DNA of 60,862 nucleotides from Methanolobus sp. (GTDB taxonomy: Archaea > Halobacteriota > Methanosarcinia > Methanosarcinales > Methanosarcinaceae), in assembly GCF_016278385.1 (NCBI RefSeq), contig NZ_JADQBY010000040.1:1-60862 (forward strand). Reading direction: 5' to 3'. The notes under the pieces were generated by a model that saw nothing but the letters and a program-made list of their open reading frames with translations, searched no databases and was not told where the DNA came from. The number at the start of each line of letters is the position of its first letter. Positions within the stretch are counted from its first letter, which is position 1. Below are positions 28,314-49,352 of this stretch, one piece after another. The translations under genes and the position numbers were made by a program.

Positions 28314-28567
28314 CTTATAAAGTCCTGCTTATAGTTTAGCGAATACAATATCTTTCTTTTTTCATTTTATGGTAATATTTGCTATATCAATTAAGCTCCC
28401 ACCCCTATTAGATGCGTCTCAAATTATATTTATTTGATATTATAAGCTAAATAGAATAGTAAATACATAATATTTATAGAATGTACTCACCTTTAAATAG
28501 GAAATACAAAATAAGTATATAATCGTATTACTACTATGAGATTATAACTTTAAGGAAGGTGTGCGGA
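28314..28567. promoter_or_regulatory. Promoter region of the PGF-CTERM protein gene
   Basis: No ORF. A TATA-like AGTATATAAT (28514-28523) and an AAGGAAGGTG ribosome site (28552-28561) precede the TTG start at 28568. Confidence 0.4.
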
Positions 28568-30517
28568 TTGGTATCAAAAAGAATTCTCTGTATTACATTA
28601 TTGTTTTTTGCATGTATGGTCTTTGTACAAACAGCTACTGCGTTGACATATTCAGGCGGAGGGGAATGGAATTACTCAGAAGAACTACTTATTCAGGAAA
28701 ACTCGGGTACTTCTCTTGTGAATTACCAGATTCCTGTGATTCTTGATAGTTCCAATTTTGATTTTTCAGTTGCTCGTTCTGAAGGTGAAGATATTCGTTT
28801 TACATCCGGCGATAAACAACTTCAACACTGGATAGAGCAGTGGGATGCAAAAAAGGAATCAGCGGTCATATGGGTTGAAGTTCCATCTGTTGCTGCCAAT
28901 GGTAATACAAAAATAACAATGTACTATGGGAATCCCAGCGCGTCAGACATAAGCAGTGGTCCGACAACATTTGATTTCTTTGATGACTTCACATCTACTG
29001 GTCTGTTCAGCAAATGGGAGACATTTACAACCGGAGGAGGTGAGCTAGAAGTCTCTGCAGGTGTCTGTAATATAATAGTTCCCAAATTCCATCCTGAAGA
29101 TGTTGCAACTATCAAATCCAAAGATGAATTTTCAATAAATTCCATGTTTGTAGCTAAAAGGAAAAAAACAACAACTGGTACTGATACCCGTGGTCCTGTT
29201 ATAATACAGGGATTTGTGGACCCGCAAAAGGAAACCAAGAACCAGATACTAACTTCCAGTGAACTTGAAAATGAGACAAAGGTTACCTGGATACTTGAAA
29301 ATTCCAAGAGCGGTGTCCGTTATTTCCCAAAGGATCTAACGAATATCAATGAAGTTGAAGGTGATTGGTACACTATTGGAGTAGCATGGTACATGGGAGA
29401 AGAATTTGGGAATATTGCCTGGTTTAAGGATGGTGTAAGGGACAGTAAAATGAATCTTGAGTCAACAGAAGAGAACAATTATGTTCCTGTTAATGACATG
29501 AAGGTGTATCTTTACACAGGTACTTATTCAGACGTTTCTGATAATACAGGTTATTCATCCATTGATTATGCCTATGTACGAAAATATGTATCAGAAGAAC
29601 CTACTGTGAAGTTCACAGGTTCTATGACAGAAGAAATCATTACAACACCTGAGCCTGTCAAAATAAATATTACTCCTGCAAGTGGTCTGATGACTGCGAT
29701 TCGTATTTTTGATACAACAGGTTATGATGATGCAGCCATATTAGACCTTAAAGATAGCGGACTGAATACTATCATGTTGCTCACAGATGGTGAAAACATC
29801 TGGAATCTGGAAAAATTTGTAAAGACAGCTCATGACAATGATATGCAGGTATATGCAATGATACTCAACGATCCGAAAAGTGATTCAGATGAGGACAACT
29901 CTGCATATGTCACAGGTGTGCTGGAAAAGGTCATTGATTACAACAGCAAGTCACTTTCGGCCTTTGATGGTGTTGATATTGCCCTTGATCCGTGCAGTGA
30001 GAATCTGGGAGAAGCCTGTACTCTGAATCTATTACTCCTTGAGGAAGTCCGTGATATGACAGGAAATGAACTTGCAATTGCAGTTGATATTCCTTCATCG
30101 TACACACTGTCCGATATTTCCAATGTATCAGAGGATGCCGATCTTATCATTCTGCAGACCTATGCCTTGGACGGAAGTAATCTTGAAACCAAGAATGATG
30201 TTATCGATGCTGTAGCATCCAGAATGGGTGAAATAAGGGCATCTGAAAGCAAAGCACTTATTGGTATAGCAGTTAACACAGATTTCATAACGGATACTGC
30301 TGTCCAGAGTCTTTTAGAAGAGGTCCAGACTTACTATGTTGAAGATACAGCATTCATGGGTACATCCATCGTTGTCTATGAAGACTATGAGGCATATACT
30401 ACCGTTCCTGAAACAGTGGAACCGGAAGAAACTGAAAGCAAAGGAATACCTGGATTCACTGTATTGTTCGCAGTTGCCGGATTGGTGGCAGTCGCATACA
30501 GGCAAAAAAGAAGATGA
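28568..30517 (+). CDS. PGF-CTERM surface protein with DUF2341 and TIM-barrel-like domains
   Basis: About 649 residues from TTG 28568 (AAGGAAGG upstream; GTG 28559 is closer to the ribosome site and less likely). Signal peptide: SKR then a hydrophobic core ending TATA. Residues about 25-110 are DUF2341 (YQIPVILDSSNFDFS, WVEVPSVAANGNTKITMYYG). About 115-350 is a concanavalin-like region (FDFFDDFTSTGLFSKWETF). About 365-610 reads as an alternating beta/alpha barrel (IRIFDTTGYDDAAILDLKDS, GVDIALDPCSENLG, ADLIILQTYALDG), recalling glycoside-hydrolase barrels. The C-terminus is an acidic linker, then IPGFTVLFAVAGLVAVAYR and QKRR, a PGF-CTERM signal, so it is probably processed and lipid-anchored by archaeosortase A. 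Possible carbohydrate-active surface enzyme. Confidence 0.82.
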   Translation: MVSKRILCITLLFFACMVFVQTATALTYSGGGEWNYSEELLIQENSGTSLVNYQIPVILDSSNFDFSVARSEGEDIRFTSGDKQLQHWIEQWDAKKESAVIWVEVPSVAANGNTKITMYYGNPSASDISSGPTTFDFFDDFTSTGLFSKWETFTTGGGELEVSAGVCNIIVPKFHPEDVATIKSKDEFSINSMFVAKRKKTTTGTDTRGPVIIQGFVDPQKETKNQILTSSELENETKVTWILENSKSGVRYFPKDLTNINEVEGDWYTIGVAWYMGEEFGNIAWFKDGVRDSKMNLESTEENNYVPVNDMKVYLYTGTYSDVSDNTGYSSIDYAYVRKYVSEEPTVKFTGSMTEEIITTPEPVKINITPASGLMTAIRIFDTTGYDDAAILDLKDSGLNTIMLLTDGENIWNLEKFVKTAHDNDMQVYAMILNDPKSDSDEDNSAYVTGVLEKVIDYNSKSLSAFDGVDIALDPCSENLGEACTLNLLLLEEVRDMTGNELAIAVDIPSSYTLSDISNVSEDADLIILQTYALDGSNLETKNDVIDAVASRMGEIRASESKALIGIAVNTDFITDTAVQSLLEEVQTYYVEDTAFMGTSIVVYEDYEAYTTVPETVEPEETESKGIPGFTVLFAVAGLVAVAYRQKRR

Positions 30518-43052: not shown

Positions 43053-43754
43053 TCATGTTTTGTTTTCCCAGGGAAATTCAGAATATTGTGATTCCACATT
43101 GATAAATTTAACAAATCTCTTATAATCATCAGCTTTTGAAACATTAATAACTAACAGATCATTTGGACGATTTTTAAAGTAGGCCATAACTTTTTTATTA
43201 TAATCTTCATAGAGGGAAATAAGTATCTCTTTATTGTAAGGATCATTATCTGGTGTTTTGTACAATTTTATTAAATTATACGCGGCTCCTTTGCTTATAT
43301 ACTCTGCATTCTTAAGATCCTCAGCTGTTGGAATATTTCCACCCATACCAAATAGTTTTGCATGAAATTTTATAAGAGAATTATACCATTGCTCTGGATC
43401 ATCCCTTACTGTGAGAATAAATTTACTTCCCGGATAAGCTTTATCAAGATATTTGTATATATTTGGCAAACTAAAGGGCACATCCTGAAAGACTTGTGCA
43501 GTCTTACAATATTTAATAATTGGGTCAAAATTTCCATGGAAATAATATGTGTTAGAAAGATACTCTGCCTCTCTTTGTTTGCCCACAATAAAACCAAGGT
43601 CTTCAAATGCTTTTTTGAGAGATGTTGTACCTGTTTTATTTTTTCCTATACAAAAGTATTTAATTTTATTTCTGCAACGAAATGTGTTAATGTTTTTCAT
43701 TATACTAGATTTATAAGGTATAAACCTGAGTATCCTACTTATTCTAAACCCCAT
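43053..43754 (-). CDS. PAPS-dependent sulfotransferase
   Basis: 233 residues. The 5'-phosphosulfate-binding loop is KYFCIGKNKTGTTSLKKAFE near the N-terminus; FQDVPFSLPNIYKYLDKAYP and GSKFILTVRDDPEQWYNSL supply the 3'-phosphate-binding segment. This matches the sulfotransferase family that moves a sulfuryl group from PAPS to a hydroxyl or amine. No membrane span or signal peptide, so it acts in the cytoplasm, e.g. on a lipid-linked glycan or small metabolite. Start ATG 43754 lies about 24 nt from a TATA box (TTTATATAA on the minus strand), implying a leaderless mRNA. It diverges from the cysQCDN operon that makes its donor. Acceptor unknown. Confidence 0.85.
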   Translation of the reverse strand: MGFRISRILRFIPYKSSIMKNINTFRCRNKIKYFCIGKNKTGTTSLKKAFEDLGFIVGKQREAEYLSNTYYFHGNFDPIIKYCKTAQVFQDVPFSLPNIYKYLDKAYPGSKFILTVRDDPEQWYNSLIKFHAKLFGMGGNIPTAEDLKNAEYISKGAAYNLIKLYKTPDNDPYNKEILISLYEDYNKKVMAYFKNRPNDLLVINVSKADDYKRFVKFINVESQYSEFPWENKT

Positions 43755-44036
43755 AATGACCTATTTAATGCAAAGTATTATATAAATTATTGTAAACATA
43801 ATTTTCGATTTGTTAATACCAGATAAGTAAATACCAATAATACAAACATCCAAAATACAATTATCTTTTGTTTATCCGCATAACATACAAAACAAGAGGC
43901 GTTAATAAATCAAATATTTTGAAAATTAAAAATCTAATTATGAGTATGTATTCTTTAGGTAATGACATAAGAATTATTGAATCACATATGTTAAATGGGA
44001 TGTCTTTTTATATTGCAACAATTAATGAATAAAGAA
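43755..44036. promoter_or_regulatory. Shared divergent promoter region, sulfotransferase / cysQCDN
   Basis: 282 bp between the two divergent units. Minus-strand TATA box TTTATATAA (43778-43786) for the sulfotransferase; plus-strand TATA-like TTTTTATATT (44005-44014) about 25-30 nt before ATG 44037 for cysQ. Neither start has a ribosome site, so both messages look leaderless. A common regulator could bind in the centre; no clear operator was seen. Confidence 0.5.
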
Positions 44037-44843
44037 ATGAATGAAAACAAAATTCCAGAAATGCTGGAGGAAATGATTCAAATTTCCAGGGGTGCCGGGG
44101 ATATTACTTTAAAGTACTATGACGATCCTGAAAAAAGTATTAAAATAAAAAATGATGATTCTCCTTTAACGAAGGCCGATCTCGAATCTGACAAATACAT
44201 AGCAGACAAACTGGAAGAACTGTGGGATATTCCAATAGTCTCTGAAGAAAAGTATGCCGATTATGATCTCAGGAAGAATTATACTGATTTCTTCCTTGTG
44301 GACCCGCTTGACGGAACTAAGGAATTCATCGAAGGTAATGGTGAATTTACAGTAAATATTGCTTACATGAAAGATAAAAAACCAATCATGGGAGTAATAT
44401 ACACACCTGCAACCGGCGTAACTTATTTTGCTGCAGAAGGTTTTGGTTCATATGTAGAAGATTCAGATGGCATTAAAAAATTGCCTGTTACTGAACTCGA
44501 ATCAGACAAACTTATTGCAACTGGAAGTAGAAAACATACAACTTATCTAGATTCCAGCTTTATGAAGATGAATTATATCGAAAATGTAATTCCTGCCGGT
44601 TCTTCCCTTAAATTCTGCAGGGTTGCCATGGGATATGCGCACTTGTACCCAAGATTTCAAGGTTCAATGGAGTGGGATATTGCAGCAGGACATATCATTG
44701 CAAAAGAGGCAGGATGTAAGCTTTTAGATCTCAAAACGATGAAAGAACCGGAATACAACAAGGAATCATTATTAAATAATTACTTCCTTGTAATAGGACA
44801 GGGATTGGATGTTTCTTCTATAAAGATACCTGATATTGAGTGA
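44037..44843 (+). CDS. cysQ: 3'(2'),5'-bisphosphate nucleotidase (PAP phosphatase, CysQ)
   Basis: 268 residues from ATG 44037; in-frame ATGs at 44025 and 43995 are alternatives, but the TATA box at 44005 argues against 43995. Inositol-monophosphatase fold with metal motifs VDPLDGTKEFIEGNGEFTVN and GSMEWDIAAGHIIAKEAGCK. CysQ hydrolyses PAP, the by-product of sulfotransfer, to AMP and phosphate, relieving product inhibition. First gene of cysQ-cysC-cysD-cysN; the next start is 7 nt past its stop. Confidence 0.9.
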   Translation: MNENKIPEMLEEMIQISRGAGDITLKYYDDPEKSIKIKNDDSPLTKADLESDKYIADKLEELWDIPIVSEEKYADYDLRKNYTDFFLVDPLDGTKEFIEGNGEFTVNIAYMKDKKPIMGVIYTPATGVTYFAAEGFGSYVEDSDGIKKLPVTELESDKLIATGSRKHTTYLDSSFMKMNYIENVIPAGSSLKFCRVAMGYAHLYPRFQGSMEWDIAAGHIIAKEAGCKLLDLKTMKEPEYNKESLLNNYFLVIGQGLDVSSIKIPDIE

Positions 44844-44850
44844 GTGGATT

Positions 44851-45381
44851 ATGTCAAAAGAAGGATTTACATTATGGTTTACAGGTTGGTCAGGAGCTGG
44901 CAAAACAACAATTGCAATGGCTATTGAGGAAGAACTGAAAAAAAGAAAAATGGGATATGTTCAAAGACTTGATGGGGATCTTGTCAGAGAGTATCTATGT
45001 CACGATTTGGGTTTTTCAAAAGAAGACCGGAATGAGAACATAAGAAGAGCAACATTTGTTGCTGAAATGTTATCTAAAAATGGTGTTATAACGCTTGTTT
45101 CGTTCATATCTCCATATCGGTCTTTAAGGGAGTATGCAAGAATCAGATGTCATAATTTTACTGAGATTTATGTTAAATGTGATCGTGACATATTGATTGA
45201 AAGGGATGTAAAAGGTCTTTATAAGAAGGCACTTGCAAATGAAATCTCAGAATTCACTGGAATAAGCGATCCTTATGAAGAACCTTTAAATCCTGAACTT
45301 GTGCTTGATACTGGAAAGGAAGAAGTTTCGGAATCAGTGAATAAAGTAATAAAATATCTTTATGAAGAGCAACTTATCTGA
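44851..45381 (+). CDS. cysC: Adenylylsulfate (APS) kinase
   Basis: 176 residues from ATG 44851 (GAGTGG upstream). P-loop [47 protein letters not shown] and [14 protein letters not shown] are diagnostic of CysC, followed by [20 protein letters not shown]. It phosphorylates APS to PAPS. Single-domain and free-standing. 7 nt from cysQ, 10 nt before cysD. Encoded beside a sulfotransferase, it is likely to make donor for sulfation. Confidence 0.94.
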
Positions 45382-45391
45382 GGAGCATAAA

Positions 45392-46300
45392 ATGTCCGCT
45401 ACAGAAGAATCTTATCGGCTTTCAAATCTAAAGACACTTGAGGCAGAAAGTATAGGTATCATAAGGGAAGTTGCTTCTGAATTCGAAAATCCTGTAATGT
45501 TATATTCGGTAGGAAAAGACTCTTCGGTAATGGCACATCTGGCTATCAAAGCATTTTATCCGAAAAAAGTGCCTTTTCCTTTGTTACATATTGATACCGG
45601 GTATAAGTTCCCTGAAATGTATACTTTCAGAGATGGTTACACAAAGAAGAATAATCTTGATCTGAAAATTCATAAGAACGAGGAAGCTCTTAGAAAAGGA
45701 ATTAATCCTCTTTCAGTAGGAACAGTCAAATGCTGTGCTGAGCTTAAAACAAAAGCACTACTCGATGCGTTAAAAGAGGGCGGCTATGATGCTGCTTTTG
45801 GTGGTGCCCGCAGAGATGAAGAGAAATCCAGGGCAAAGGAAAGGATATTTTCCTTCAGGGACAAGCACGGTCAATGGAATCCAAAGAATCAGAAACCTGA
45901 ATTGTGGAACATCTTCAATTCACAAATAGACCCCGGAGAATCTATCAGAGTATTCCCACTTTCTAACTGGACTGAACTTGATATCTGGACTTACATTTAT
46001 CATGAGAATATTGACATTGTTCCTCTTTACTTTGCCAAAAAAAGACCGGTTATTGAAAAGAATAATCAACTTATTCCAGCTTATACAAATGAGCATGAAG
46101 AAGAGATCAAAGAAGTTATGTGTCGTTTCAGGACCCTTGGATGTCATTATTGTACAGGCGCAGTAAGATCAGATGCAGTTACTCTGCCACAAATAATTGA
46201 GGAAATGATGGTTGCACGTCATTCAGAACGTATTACAAGAGTGATCGATCATGATCAGGACAGTTCAATGGAACAAAAGAAGAGGGAGGGATACTTTTGA
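45392..46300 (+). CDS. cysD: Sulfate adenylyltransferase subunit 2
   Basis: 302 residues from ATG 45392 (GAGGAGC upstream). PP-loop-type ATP binding [19 protein letters not shown], then [55 protein letters not shown] and [14 protein letters not shown]. This is the catalytic subunit of the heterodimeric ATP sulfurylase that makes APS from sulfate and ATP. Its stop overlaps the cysN start by 4 nt, implying translational coupling. Methanogens mostly assimilate sulfide, so CysDN is not expected in all of them. Confidence 0.94.
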
Positions 46301-47841
46301 AAGGTTCTGAATCTTTGATTGAACAAAACCAGAATATTGGTCTGTTAAGATTTGCTACTGCAGGAAGTGTGGATGATGGGAAATCAACCCTAATAGGCAG
46401 ACTTCTACATGACTCTAAATCAATATTTGAAGACCAATTAAGTTCTATAAAAGACTATTCTAAACTTCATCGAAATCAGGAAATAGATTATTCTCTGGTA
46501 ACAGATGGTCTGAAATCTGAAAGAGAACAGGGAATAACGATAGATGTCGCCTACAGGTTCTATTCAACTCCTAAGAGACGGTTTATCATTGCTGATACAC
46601 CAGGTCATGAGCAATATACCAGAAACATGGCTACCGGTGCATCAAATGCCTCTCTTGCCCTGATTCTTGTTGATGCCAGGAATGGTGTTATGACCCAGAC
46701 CCGTAGACATACTTTCATATCTTCTCTTCTTGGGATCAGGCATTTTGTAGTTGCAATCAATAAAATGGATCTTGTTGATTACTCTGAAGAAGTATTTGAG
46801 AAAATTGTTGATGAGTATAACATTTTTTCTGATAAATTGTCAGCAGAGTCGATATACTTCATACCAATAAGCGCTCTTAAAGGTGATAATGTAATCGAGA
46901 GAAGCAGCAACATGCCATGGTATGGAGGATCGACATTACTGGATTATCTGGAGAACGTGAATGTATCAGGCGGTCGTAACCTGATCGATTTCAGGTTCCC
47001 GGTACAATATGTCAACTGGGACGGCAGTGATTTTAGAGGGTATTGTGGAACAATAGCTTCAGGGGTTATTCGTAAAGGGGAGAGAGTAAGGATTCTTCCA
47101 TCAGGAAAGACAACTGAAATCTCAAGGATCGTGACTTATGATGGAGATCTTGATTATGCATTTGCTCCTATGGCAGTGACACTTTGCCTTAAGGATGACA
47201 TTGATGTTAGTCGCGGTGATGTTATTGCCAGAGCTCATAATCTTCCTGCGATTGTCGGAACAATGGAAGCTAATTTAGTATGGATGGATTCTGATCCTAT
47301 GGAAATTGGGAAGGATTATCTGATAAAGCATACTACAAGGACACTGAAAGGAAGTTTTACCGAAGTTCTTTATAAATTCGATCCTGAAGATATTCATAGA
47401 AAACCTGCAGAAATGTTAAGCTTAAATGATATCGGGAAAGTTAAAATCGAATTAAAGAGTCCGATTTTTGCTGATATATACTCTAATAATAAGATCACAG
47501 GTTCATTTATTGTGATCGATCCACATACTAACCAGACAGCTGCTGCCGGAATGATATCAAAATACAAGCAGGTTTCTCCTGATAAAGCCTGTGAGTCTGT
47601 AAAAGCCAGGGTCATAAAGTATCCGGGATTGAAACAAGAAGAGGCAAAGAGCAATTATGACCGTCTGTCCATGCAAGGCACACACTGCATTTATGTGGAT
47701 GATGAATTACTGATTGAAGGTTTGTGTAAAGGAATTCCAGTTAAAAGCAAGGAATATTCCAATATTGTGGAGGAACTTTGCAGTATTGTTACCAGATCGG
47801 GCGTATCAGTGGTTTTGTGCTCAGAGTCTATAAGTAATTGA
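46297..47841 (+). CDS. cysN: Sulfate adenylyltransferase subunit 1 (GTPase)
   Basis: 514 residues starting at TTG 46297, six nt after GAGGGAGGG. Elongation-factor-like GTPase: [57 protein letters not shown] and a SALKG loop, then beta-barrel domains with [16 protein letters not shown] and [17 protein letters not shown]. It couples GTP hydrolysis to APS formation with CysD. There is no C-terminal CysC fusion; the C-terminal 80 residues are an extension ending [14 protein letters not shown], which resembles a degenerate APS-kinase tail rather than an active domain. Confidence 0.93.
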
Positions 47842-47960
47842 ATTTGATTGTCCCAAATCAGAATTGCAGGAATATATCTGAAACCGTATGGACTACAAGC
47901 ATAAGCAAAGTCTGGTTTGAAAAGTCATGTGGTATATGATTTCAAACAGTGGTGGCGTGA

Positions 47961-49352
47961 ATGACAGAAATTAAGCCCAATTACAGAGTATTACTGGTAA
48001 GTTTCGTTATTCTGTTATTCATATACCTCGTTCCGACTCCCAATGGTCTATCTGTCGAGGGTAAGAATGCACTTGGAATATTTGTTGTAGCTATCATTCT
48101 ATGGACAACAAGTGCCATTCCTCTTTCAGTAACCGGTCTTCTTGTAATTGCTCTCTTGCCATTGCTTAATGTGATGTCCAGCAAGGAAGCTTTTGCACTT
48201 TTTGGAAATCAGGCAGTATTCTTCATTATGGGTGCATTTATTCTTGCAGCCGCAATGATGAAAACAGGACTCAGTAAAAGAGCTGCCCTTTTGATGCTAA
48301 GCAAGTTCGATGGAACTCCACGAAGGCTTTTATTTAGTGTTATGTTTTCTTCTGCACTGCTTTCATTCATAATGCCTGAACACGCTGTTGCTGCAATGAT
48401 GTTTCCTGTAGTAGCAGCGATTGCAGACAGTCTGGACCTTGAACCTCTGAACAGCAAATATGGGACATTACTTTTCCTTTCAATGGCCTGGGGTGCAATA
48501 ATAGGAGGTGTTGGGACACTTCTCGGAGGAGCCAGAAACCCACTTGCAATAGGCCTTCTTGAGGAGAATTCAGGAGTAACAATAAGTTTTTTTGAATGGT
48601 GCATAGCGATAATACCTATTGTATTTGTAATGCTTGCAGTTGGGTTTATTACGCTGAATCTCTTTTTCAAGATAGATGTTCATGATGTCAGATCTGCAAA
48701 AGAAGTGCTCGAAAGACAGTTAAATAGAATGGGTAAAATGAGCATTTATGAAAAAAAAGCAGGTGGGATCTTGTTTTTTACTGTTCTTGCATGGATCTTC
48801 TTTGGACATATAATAGGGTTGGCTGAAATTGCAGTGCTATCAGGTGTATCTTTATTTATTCTCAATGTGATTAGCTGGGATGATGTAGAGTCAAATGTGA
48901 ACTGGGGAATCATCTTGATGTACGGGGGTGCTATTTCCATGGGTTCTGCACTGGTTACTACAGGTGCTGTAGAATGGATTGCAGACACGGTACTTAATAA
49001 TGGATATCCGAATCCCTTCGTTATGTTGATCATTATTTCATTGGTAGCAAAGTTTCTGACAGAAGGTGTTAGTAATTCAGCAGCAGTAGCTATACTACTC
49101 CCAATTGGCTTTAGCCTTGGAGCTGTTATTGATATTAATCCAATAGCTATGACCTATATGGTGGCAGTTCCTGCAGGTCTTGCATTTATCCTGCCAATGG
49201 GGACACCTGCAAACGCAATTGCATATTCCTCAGGCTATTATGAAATAAAAGAAATACTTCTTCCCGGGTTAGTTTTAAATCTAATATCATGGATAGTGTT
49301 TATCCTGATGGCACTCACTTATTGGCCTTTAATAGGAATAAGCCTAACATAG
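47961..49352 (+). CDS. SLC13/DASS-family anion transporter, probable sulfate importer
   Basis: 463 residues and about 11-12 membrane spans. Family motifs: EGKNALGIFVVAIILWTTSA, FFIMGAFILAAAMMKTGLS, TEGVSNSAAVAILLPIGF and PMGTPANAIAYSSGYY. DASS proteins use Na+ to import sulfate, di- or tricarboxylates. Position 119 nt after cysN on the same strand makes sulfate the best guess. It contains no TrkA-C or other cytoplasmic domain; the UspA-like protein next to it may supply regulation. Confidence 0.88.
   Translation: MTEIKPNYRVLLVSFVILLFIYLVPTPNGLSVEGKNALGIFVVAIILWTTSAIPLSVTGLLVIALLPLLNVMSSKEAFALFGNQAVFFIMGAFILAAAMMKTGLSKRAALLMLSKFDGTPRRLLFSVMFSSALLSFIMPEHAVAAMMFPVVAAIADSLDLEPLNSKYGTLLFLSMAWGAIIGGVGTLLGGARNPLAIGLLEENSGVTISFFEWCIAIIPIVFVMLAVGFITLNLFFKIDVHDVRSAKEVLERQLNRMGKMSIYEKKAGGILFFTVLAWIFFGHIIGLAEIAVLSGVSLFILNVISWDDVESNVNWGIILMYGGAISMGSALVTTGAVEWIADTVLNNGYPNPFVMLIIISLVAKFLTEGVSNSAAVAILLPIGFSLGAVIDINPIAMTYMVAVPAGLAFILPMGTPANAIAYSSGYYEIKEILLPGLVLNLISWIVFILMALTYWPLIGISLT

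Follow-up and report, generated by a model that had tools for sequence, protein, structure and literature searches.

What does a methanogen do with a surface protein in which a DUF2341 domain is followed by a segment that is predicted to fold like a glycoside hydrolase? This question is raised by an open reading frame in a 60,862-nucleotide stretch of Methanolobus DNA (hereafter, the window). The original prediction read its product as a possible new carbohydrate-active enzyme of the cell surface. We found that the DUF2341 domain and the PGF-CTERM signal both score above their curated cut-offs and that the gene is conserved in the genus, so the underlying observation is real; what had to be determined is whether the barrel can act as an enzyme and, if it cannot, what else it may do.

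A single-copy gene conserved in the genus

The frame at 28568-30517 (+ strand) spans 649 codons from a TTG start at 28568 to a stop at 30515-30517, and is present as a single copy in its own genome. Putative upstream signals, both read by eye, are a TATA-box-like TTTAAATA (28492..28499, +) and a ribosome-binding-site-like AAGGAAGGTG (28552..28561, +) that lies 6 nt before the TTG and is overlapped by an in-frame GTG at 28559. Searching 60 genomes (own included) with the whole protein gave matches in 50, many of them to the DUF2341 part or the PGF tail alone. Within the genus (27 genomes with its own), the copy is truncated at a contig edge in one genome (G014), a second shows a weak C-terminal match alone (G012) and a third has no match (G020). 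The remaining 24 have full-length orthologues and the barrel is under purifying selection (see below), which rules out that the frame is due to chance. The nearest named relatives are those of Methanolobus profundi, M. psychrotolerans and M. vulcani (69-74% identity in the best segment), which bears out the methanogen host that had been proposed. Further relatives come from a Methanosarcinaceae metagenome-assembled genome (53%), a Methanococcoides (45%) and Methanosarcina species (44-45%), the last with a longer linker ahead of the barrel.

A NUDIX pyrophosphatase gene upstream and an AMP-binding ligase gene downstream recur in all four loci examined from the Methanolobus group (L026-L029); L027 shows the downstream side alone, and in L026 and L029 a further frame separates the NUDIX gene from the gene studied here. 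The loci of Methanococcoides (L030) and Methanosarcina (L031-L035) lack these neighbours, which therefore give no functional hint. Elsewhere in the window, Pfam matches at 43053-47841 identify an APS kinase, a PAPS-reductase-domain protein, an EF-Tu-like GTPase (as in CysD/CysN), an inositol-monophosphatase-family protein and a Sulfotransfer_4 protein. Beside these sulfate-activation-like genes, 47961-49352 encodes a transporter of the Na/sulfate symporter family (Pfam). Judged by sequence, the genes at 43053-49352 point to a possible sulfation of surface molecules in this methanogen.

Signals for secretion and lipid anchoring

Residues 1-26 (28568..28645, +) are hydrophobic by sequence reading, coincide with a helix (2-27) in the full-length model, and are a probable Sec signal peptide. 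At the other end, the C-terminal PGF-CTERM signal held up: the tail, comprising IPGF, a hydrophobic helix and basic residues (30437..30514, +), matched Pfam PF18204 over residues 627-646 (23.6 bits, cut-off 18.8) and NCBIfam TIGR04126 (26.4 bits, cut-off 24.5). A search of the genome for artA located the gene for archaeosortase A, the enzyme presumed to target this tail (TIGR04125, 269.9 bits, cut-off 75). In both its TIGR04126 score and the presence of archaeosortase A in the genome, the protein is like PGF-CTERM/archaeosortase A substrates, and we infer that it undergoes archaeosortase-dependent tail cleavage and lipid anchoring. It differs from those substrates in that it has sugar-active folds and is not the S-layer protein itself.

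TIGR04126 matched three places above its cut-off in this genome (the gene studied here, a 682-residue frame and a 206-residue frame) and one below. Three may be a lower bound, since Methanosarcinales are described in passages of PMC9723798 as having an average of 20 PGF-CTERM proteins when purpose-made profiles are added. The 682-residue frame reads as a duplicated S-layer protein. The 206-residue frame (at G000:C35:7712-7789) carries a single CxxCH haem motif (CAICH), and its product is possibly a lipid-anchored surface cytochrome. In seven proteins from other species of the genus (L016 and L019-L024), IPAF or IPSF replaces PGF and the remaining tail is kept.

DUF2341 and a jelly roll precede the barrel

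The DUF2341 domain was confirmed by a match to PF10102 over residues 73-152 (28784..29023, +; E 1.2e-27, 96.6 bits, cut-off 23.4), the only one in this genome. This N-terminal domain, above the curated cut-off, is what the protein has in common with DUF2341 surface proteins of archaea and bacteria. Of the matches listed, those from outside Methanosarcinaceae mostly cover no more than the first 410 residues, and outside that group the barrel was seen only in family f10 and, partially, in genome G039.

The full-length model (pTM 0.51), weaker than that of the barrel described below, placed a beta-sandwich at about residues 36-120 and a concanavalin-A-like jelly roll at about residues 135-340 (28970..29587, +). 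The best superposition of this predicted jelly roll, among the matches listed, was on the GH16 glucanase 3d6e (Z 18.8, 2.7 A, 175 residues), and it also superposed on the lectin ERGIC-53 (Z 17.8). The catalytic motif of GH16 enzymes follows the pattern E-x-D-x-(x)-E, which occurred in the N-terminal part of none of 46 family members; an active GH16 enzyme working by the canonical mechanism was thus rejected.

The C-terminal domain is predicted to be a GH18-like barrel

The original prediction placed alternating strands and helices, like those of a TIM barrel, at residues 365-610. Our AlphaFold2 model of residues 360-614, built from a shallow alignment of 11 sequences, revealed a complete (beta-alpha)8 barrel (mean pLDDT 80.1, pTM 0.82) in which eight strands (18-21, 42-46, 68-73, 109-113, 144-149, 167-171, 204-210 and 237-244 in domain-model numbering) strictly alternate with eight helices, one after each strand. 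The predicted barrel covers about residues 377-611 (29696..30400, +) and falls in no Pfam or NCBIfam family over threshold.

Fold searches identified the barrel as one of the glycoside-hydrolase type. The first 12 rows of a Foldseek search against the PDB were what we take, from row titles and general knowledge, to be GH18-type enzymes or their inactive relatives, with hevamine, a tamarind chi-lectin, chitinase ChiL, a pomegranate chitinase, endo-F3, concanavalin B, yeast CTS1 and XAIP at the top, the inactive ones including the tamarind chi-lectin, concanavalin B and a xylanase/amylase inhibitor (E 9e-7 to 7e-6; moderate TM-scores by query of 0.48-0.60; identity 10-17%). Row 13 was an F420-dependent oxidoreductase, and GH18 and unrelated barrels were mixed below it. 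Among the matches listed by VIA-align, the functional region of Clostridioides difficile Cwp19 came first (Z 17.0, 3.6 A, 219 residues) and GH18 chitinases followed (Z about 16), with the C-terminal domain of PgaB (Z 15.7, 3.2 A, 218 residues) and GH5 within about 2 Z units. Because Cwp19, PgaB and GH5 are other families that lie so near GH18 in Z, structure by itself narrows the barrel down no further than to glycosidase barrels in general and does not prove descent from GH18.

We therefore turn to sequence. PF00704, the Pfam family of GH18, had no match in the window protein at E-values up to 10, so the protein fails GH18 membership by the Pfam gathering score of 29.6 bits; the rest of its genome had none at E-values up to 0.001. 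Three of the 11 members of the barrel alignment did match below the cut-off (best E 1.5e-4). Across 100 family genomes, PF00704 matched in 12, above the cut-off in five (six places), and all eight sub-threshold places were members of this barrel family (seven are listed members, and that of the eighth, L133, overlaps with L117). Against PDB sequences, the only molecule that the barrel profile matched was the chitinase OfChtIV, weakly (E 0.062); neither Cwp19 nor PgaB was among the two PDB sequences matched. Searching PDB sequences directly with the window protein yielded no useful match (best E 0.19), and an NCBIfam scan of the barrel gave weak matches to unrelated families alone (best E 0.0073).

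Profile-profile comparison by hhalign of the barrel family with five Methanosarcinaceae GH18 proteins, all from one genus, gave a local probability of 73.8 (E 2.9e-5, as a single comparison) over 124 columns and, in a global run, a probability of 23.4 over 215 columns; the sixth place above the cut-off (L129) was missed by the motif pattern and left out. The local alignment set DGVDIALD of the barrel on the GH18 catalytic motif DGVNLDLE and LIILQTYALDG on VFLMSYDYCN, so that Y532 pairs with the Tyr in the MxYD segment of GH18 enzymes, a segment which holds the N-acetyl group. The window barrel thus shares with GH18 chitinases its predicted fold, the position of the DG.D.D.E motif and an MxYD-like Tyr after strand 6; it differs from them in scoring below the Pfam cut-off and in having lost, throughout the genus, the assisting Asp and the catalytic Glu.

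The GH18 catalytic residues are lost

GH18 enzymes carry the signature DXXDXDXE, or [LIVMFY]-[DN]-G-[LIVMF]-[DN]-[LIVMF]-[DN]-x-E, as given in passages of PMC3662789. The window protein has FDGVDIALD and fails this pattern: in the relic DGVDIALD (residues 467-474; 29966..29989, +), the assisting Asp is Ala472 and the catalytic Glu is Asp474. Neither position is conserved in the family. Among 46 distinct members (identical copies counted once, one sequence below 200 residues excluded), the Asp column reads A in 23, Y in 15, S in five, D in two and T in one, and the Glu column reads N in 18, D in 16, K in 10, T in one and H in one. When later loci were added to give 55 distinct domains of at least 225 residues each (leaving out L157 and L158, second fetches of L143 and L142), the Glu column held D in 19, N in 18, K in 11, E in five, T in one and H in one. 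None of the 24 genus rows has Glu (15 D, 8 N, 1 H).

Loss of the Glu is not universal in the family: three members from other Methanosarcinaceae genera (L149, L150 and L156) keep it, although their Asp is already Tyr. The full motif is retained in two of the 55 domains, L142 (DGINIDIE) and L143 (DGINIDTE), both from f10, a family of another archaeal class. L143 carries DUF2341 and reaches 29.1 bits with PF00704 (cut-off 29.6), the best of five relatives scanned. L142 has DUF2341 and a sub-threshold PGF-CTERM signal, and gave no PF00704 match at E-values up to 0.1 despite its full motif. The DUF2341-plus-barrel build therefore also occurs with a motif that looks intact. In f10 it is uncommon, occurring in 3 of 51 f10 genomes and 3 of 58 genomes of the class, one of the three (G350) having two pieces alone, without the motif region. 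Over the phylum, a profile of the barrel alone matched in 51 of 392 genomes and 8 of 136 genera, a few of the matches being partial.

The GH18 mechanism requires both the catalytic Glu and the assisting Asp, and with both gone hydrolysis is unlikely. We thus rejected an active GH18 enzyme working by the canonical mechanism. The proposal of a carbohydrate-active enzyme finds no support: the absence of acidic catalytic residues was to speak against it, and the canonical Asp and Glu are replaced by A472 and D474.

Two further observations concern this region. E555 (30230-30232) is Glu in all 46 members, and Ala and Ser in the two full-motif relatives; its change possibly co-occurred with the loss of catalysis. 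Separately, a distant relative of part of the barrel, with FDGIHIDAEP or FDGIHVDAEP, occurs in two very long frames with PKD domains: L151 (1774 aa) and L152 (1845 aa), the latter also with dockerin, NosD and transglutaminase-like domains.

The barrel is maintained by purifying selection

We built a maximum-likelihood tree of 57 rows, whose midpoint root fell on L151 plus L152 (IDAE/VDAE at the motif); the length of the outgroup branch (1.95) calls for caution. L142 and L143 lie outside Methanosarcinaceae (53 rows, support 100/94), with their order weakly resolved (82/39). Methanosarcinaceae divide into a 21-row clade whose deepest branches have Glu, the long branch of L156 calling for caution, and a 32-row clade without it. 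The simplest reading of these sequences is that Glu was lost at least twice and that Asp was lost first in the 21-row clade. Transfer of the barrel between archaeal classes is possible. We also considered whether DGIDIDVN in L097 and L098 is a preserved intermediate and rejected this, as the tree nests both in a clade with mostly Tyr at that column, which makes their Asp more likely a reversion.

Across 26 pairs at least 80% identical, the barrel had a median dN/dS (Nei-Gojobori) of 0.106 and a maximum of 0.349; the synonymous distances of some pairs, at about 1 or higher, are rough. Purifying selection despite loss of the motif suggests that the barrel has another use.

A probable glycan-binding pseudoenzyme

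We consider it more likely than not that the protein is a lipid-anchored, glycan-binding pseudoenzyme of the cell surface, derived from GH18. When secreted, it would consist of a beta-sandwich (DUF2341), a jelly roll of lectin-like fold and a TIM barrel derived from GH18, with the PGF-CTERM tail at the end. After signal cleavage, archaeosortase A would remove this tail, leaving a lipid-anchored protein whose three folded domains stand outside the membrane, either within the S-layer or reaching through it. The barrel, of GH18 glycosidase descent and devoid of the acid/base Glu and the assisting Asp, would carry out no hydrolysis by the GH18 mechanism; purifying selection would have kept it as a binding module which, with the jelly roll, holds glycans. 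The lectin-like fold of the modelled jelly roll and the surface anchor are explained most economically by glycan binding. The ligand would probably be N-acetylhexosamine-containing glycans, either from the envelope of the cell itself or from cells nearby.

Barrels with substituted catalytic residues are known from GH18 chi-lectins and inhibitors (TCLL, concanavalin B, narbonin, XAIP and the animal CHI3L1 type), and the window protein resembles them in this respect. One mark of a chi-lectin-type GH18 pseudoenzyme, alongside specific sugar binding, is homology to GH18 together with a substituted Glu, and the window family shows this combination (hhalign E 2.9e-5, probability 73.8, with the motif columns aligned). 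It differs from the chi-lectins in being archaeal, in its fusion to DUF2341 and a jelly roll, in its PGF-CTERM tail and in an identity of 10-17% over the first 12 Foldseek rows. Plant GH18 pseudoenzymes are able to bind sugars: PMC3662789 describes TCLL as lacking the DXXDXDXE motif and binding GlcNAc. Substitutions of the catalytic Glu are described as recurrent among animal GH18 relatives in PMC1945033. The Methanosarcina S-layer is glycosylated according to passages of PMC3361143, and the methanochondroitin formula given in part of PMC12369344 comprises GalNAc and glucuronic acid; S-layer glycans and, in relatives, methanochondroitin are candidate ligands. The literature found on DUF2341, PGF-CTERM, Methanosarcina and Methanolobus S-layers and chitinase-like lectins (mostly non-subscription papers) does not describe this protein, and a search of likewise mostly non-subscription papers for archaeal GH18 pseudoenzymes found none.

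A more ambitious version of this reading, which we advance tentatively and think doubtful as a whole, is that the family is a stepwise archaeal counterpart of the chi-lectins, which arose from an active surface GH18-type enzyme and is now an N-acetylhexosamine envelope lectin with a role in aggregation. The steps would be represented by the full-motif relatives of another class, then by the Glu-only members on deep Methanosarcinaceae branches and finally by this genus, which has neither residue; the ligands would be S-layer N-glycans or a methanochondroitin-like matrix.

We weighed three rival explanations. It is unlikely, though not far-fetched, that the protein is a structural component of the envelope whose domains bind no glycan and serve as spacers or protein-protein contacts, keeping the S-layer stable or holding another protein in place. 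This would suit a single-copy gene which is kept at full length in 24 of 27 genus genomes, does not share its neighbours with the loci examined in Methanococcoides and Methanosarcina, and whose product has one of the three above-cut-off TIGR04126 places beside a protein reading as an S-layer protein; yet two successive predicted carbohydrate-active folds are more easily explained by glycan binding.

Distinctly unlikely is an active glycosidase with a non-canonical site, which would hydrolyse a surface glycan by means of other residues, for instance E415, which follows strand 2, or D474 standing in for the Glu. Positions E415, D467, D547, E555 and D593 are acidic in all 46 members, the Glu column is Asp in 15 of the 24 genus rows, and two relatives of another class retain the full GH18 motif. 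Asp474, being acidic, might give weak activity in this genus, and W412, E415 and D547, which are among the invariant polar residues of the 46-member set, could form another active site. However, the replacements are varied (D, N, K, T and H in the Glu column; mostly A, Y and S in the Asp column), the two full-motif relatives have Ala or Ser in place of E555, and D467, E555 and D593 lie, by predicted secondary structure, immediately ahead of a strand or near the end of a helix, off the usual mouth of the barrel.

Finally, an adhesin working with type IV pili is improbable: DUF2341 proteins occur in methanococcal pilus loci and have been proposed to be PilY-like tip adhesins (passages of PMC4858521), and a DUF2341 gene was hit repeatedly in a screen for transformation defects in Methanococcus maripaludis (parts of PMC10133366), but no pilus gene was recognised among the frames of the window (start sequences read, ten frames scanned with Pfam) and the PGF-CTERM tail puts the protein at the membrane rather than at a pilus tip. 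In a general way, the links of DUF2341 to pilus-tip adhesins and transformation do fit an adhesive role.

For the glycan-binding pseudoenzyme that we favour, these results mean that about 250 residues of a surface protein widely kept in a methanogen genus, assigned to no Pfam or NCBIfam family above threshold, can be named as a GH18-derived barrel. Because its relatives with full, half-eroded and fully eroded motifs share one architecture, the family provides naturally occurring stages on which to test how a glycosidase turns into a binding protein. If envelope glycans are bound, the protein would also open a way to study how cells of Methanosarcinaceae adhere to one another or to their partners.
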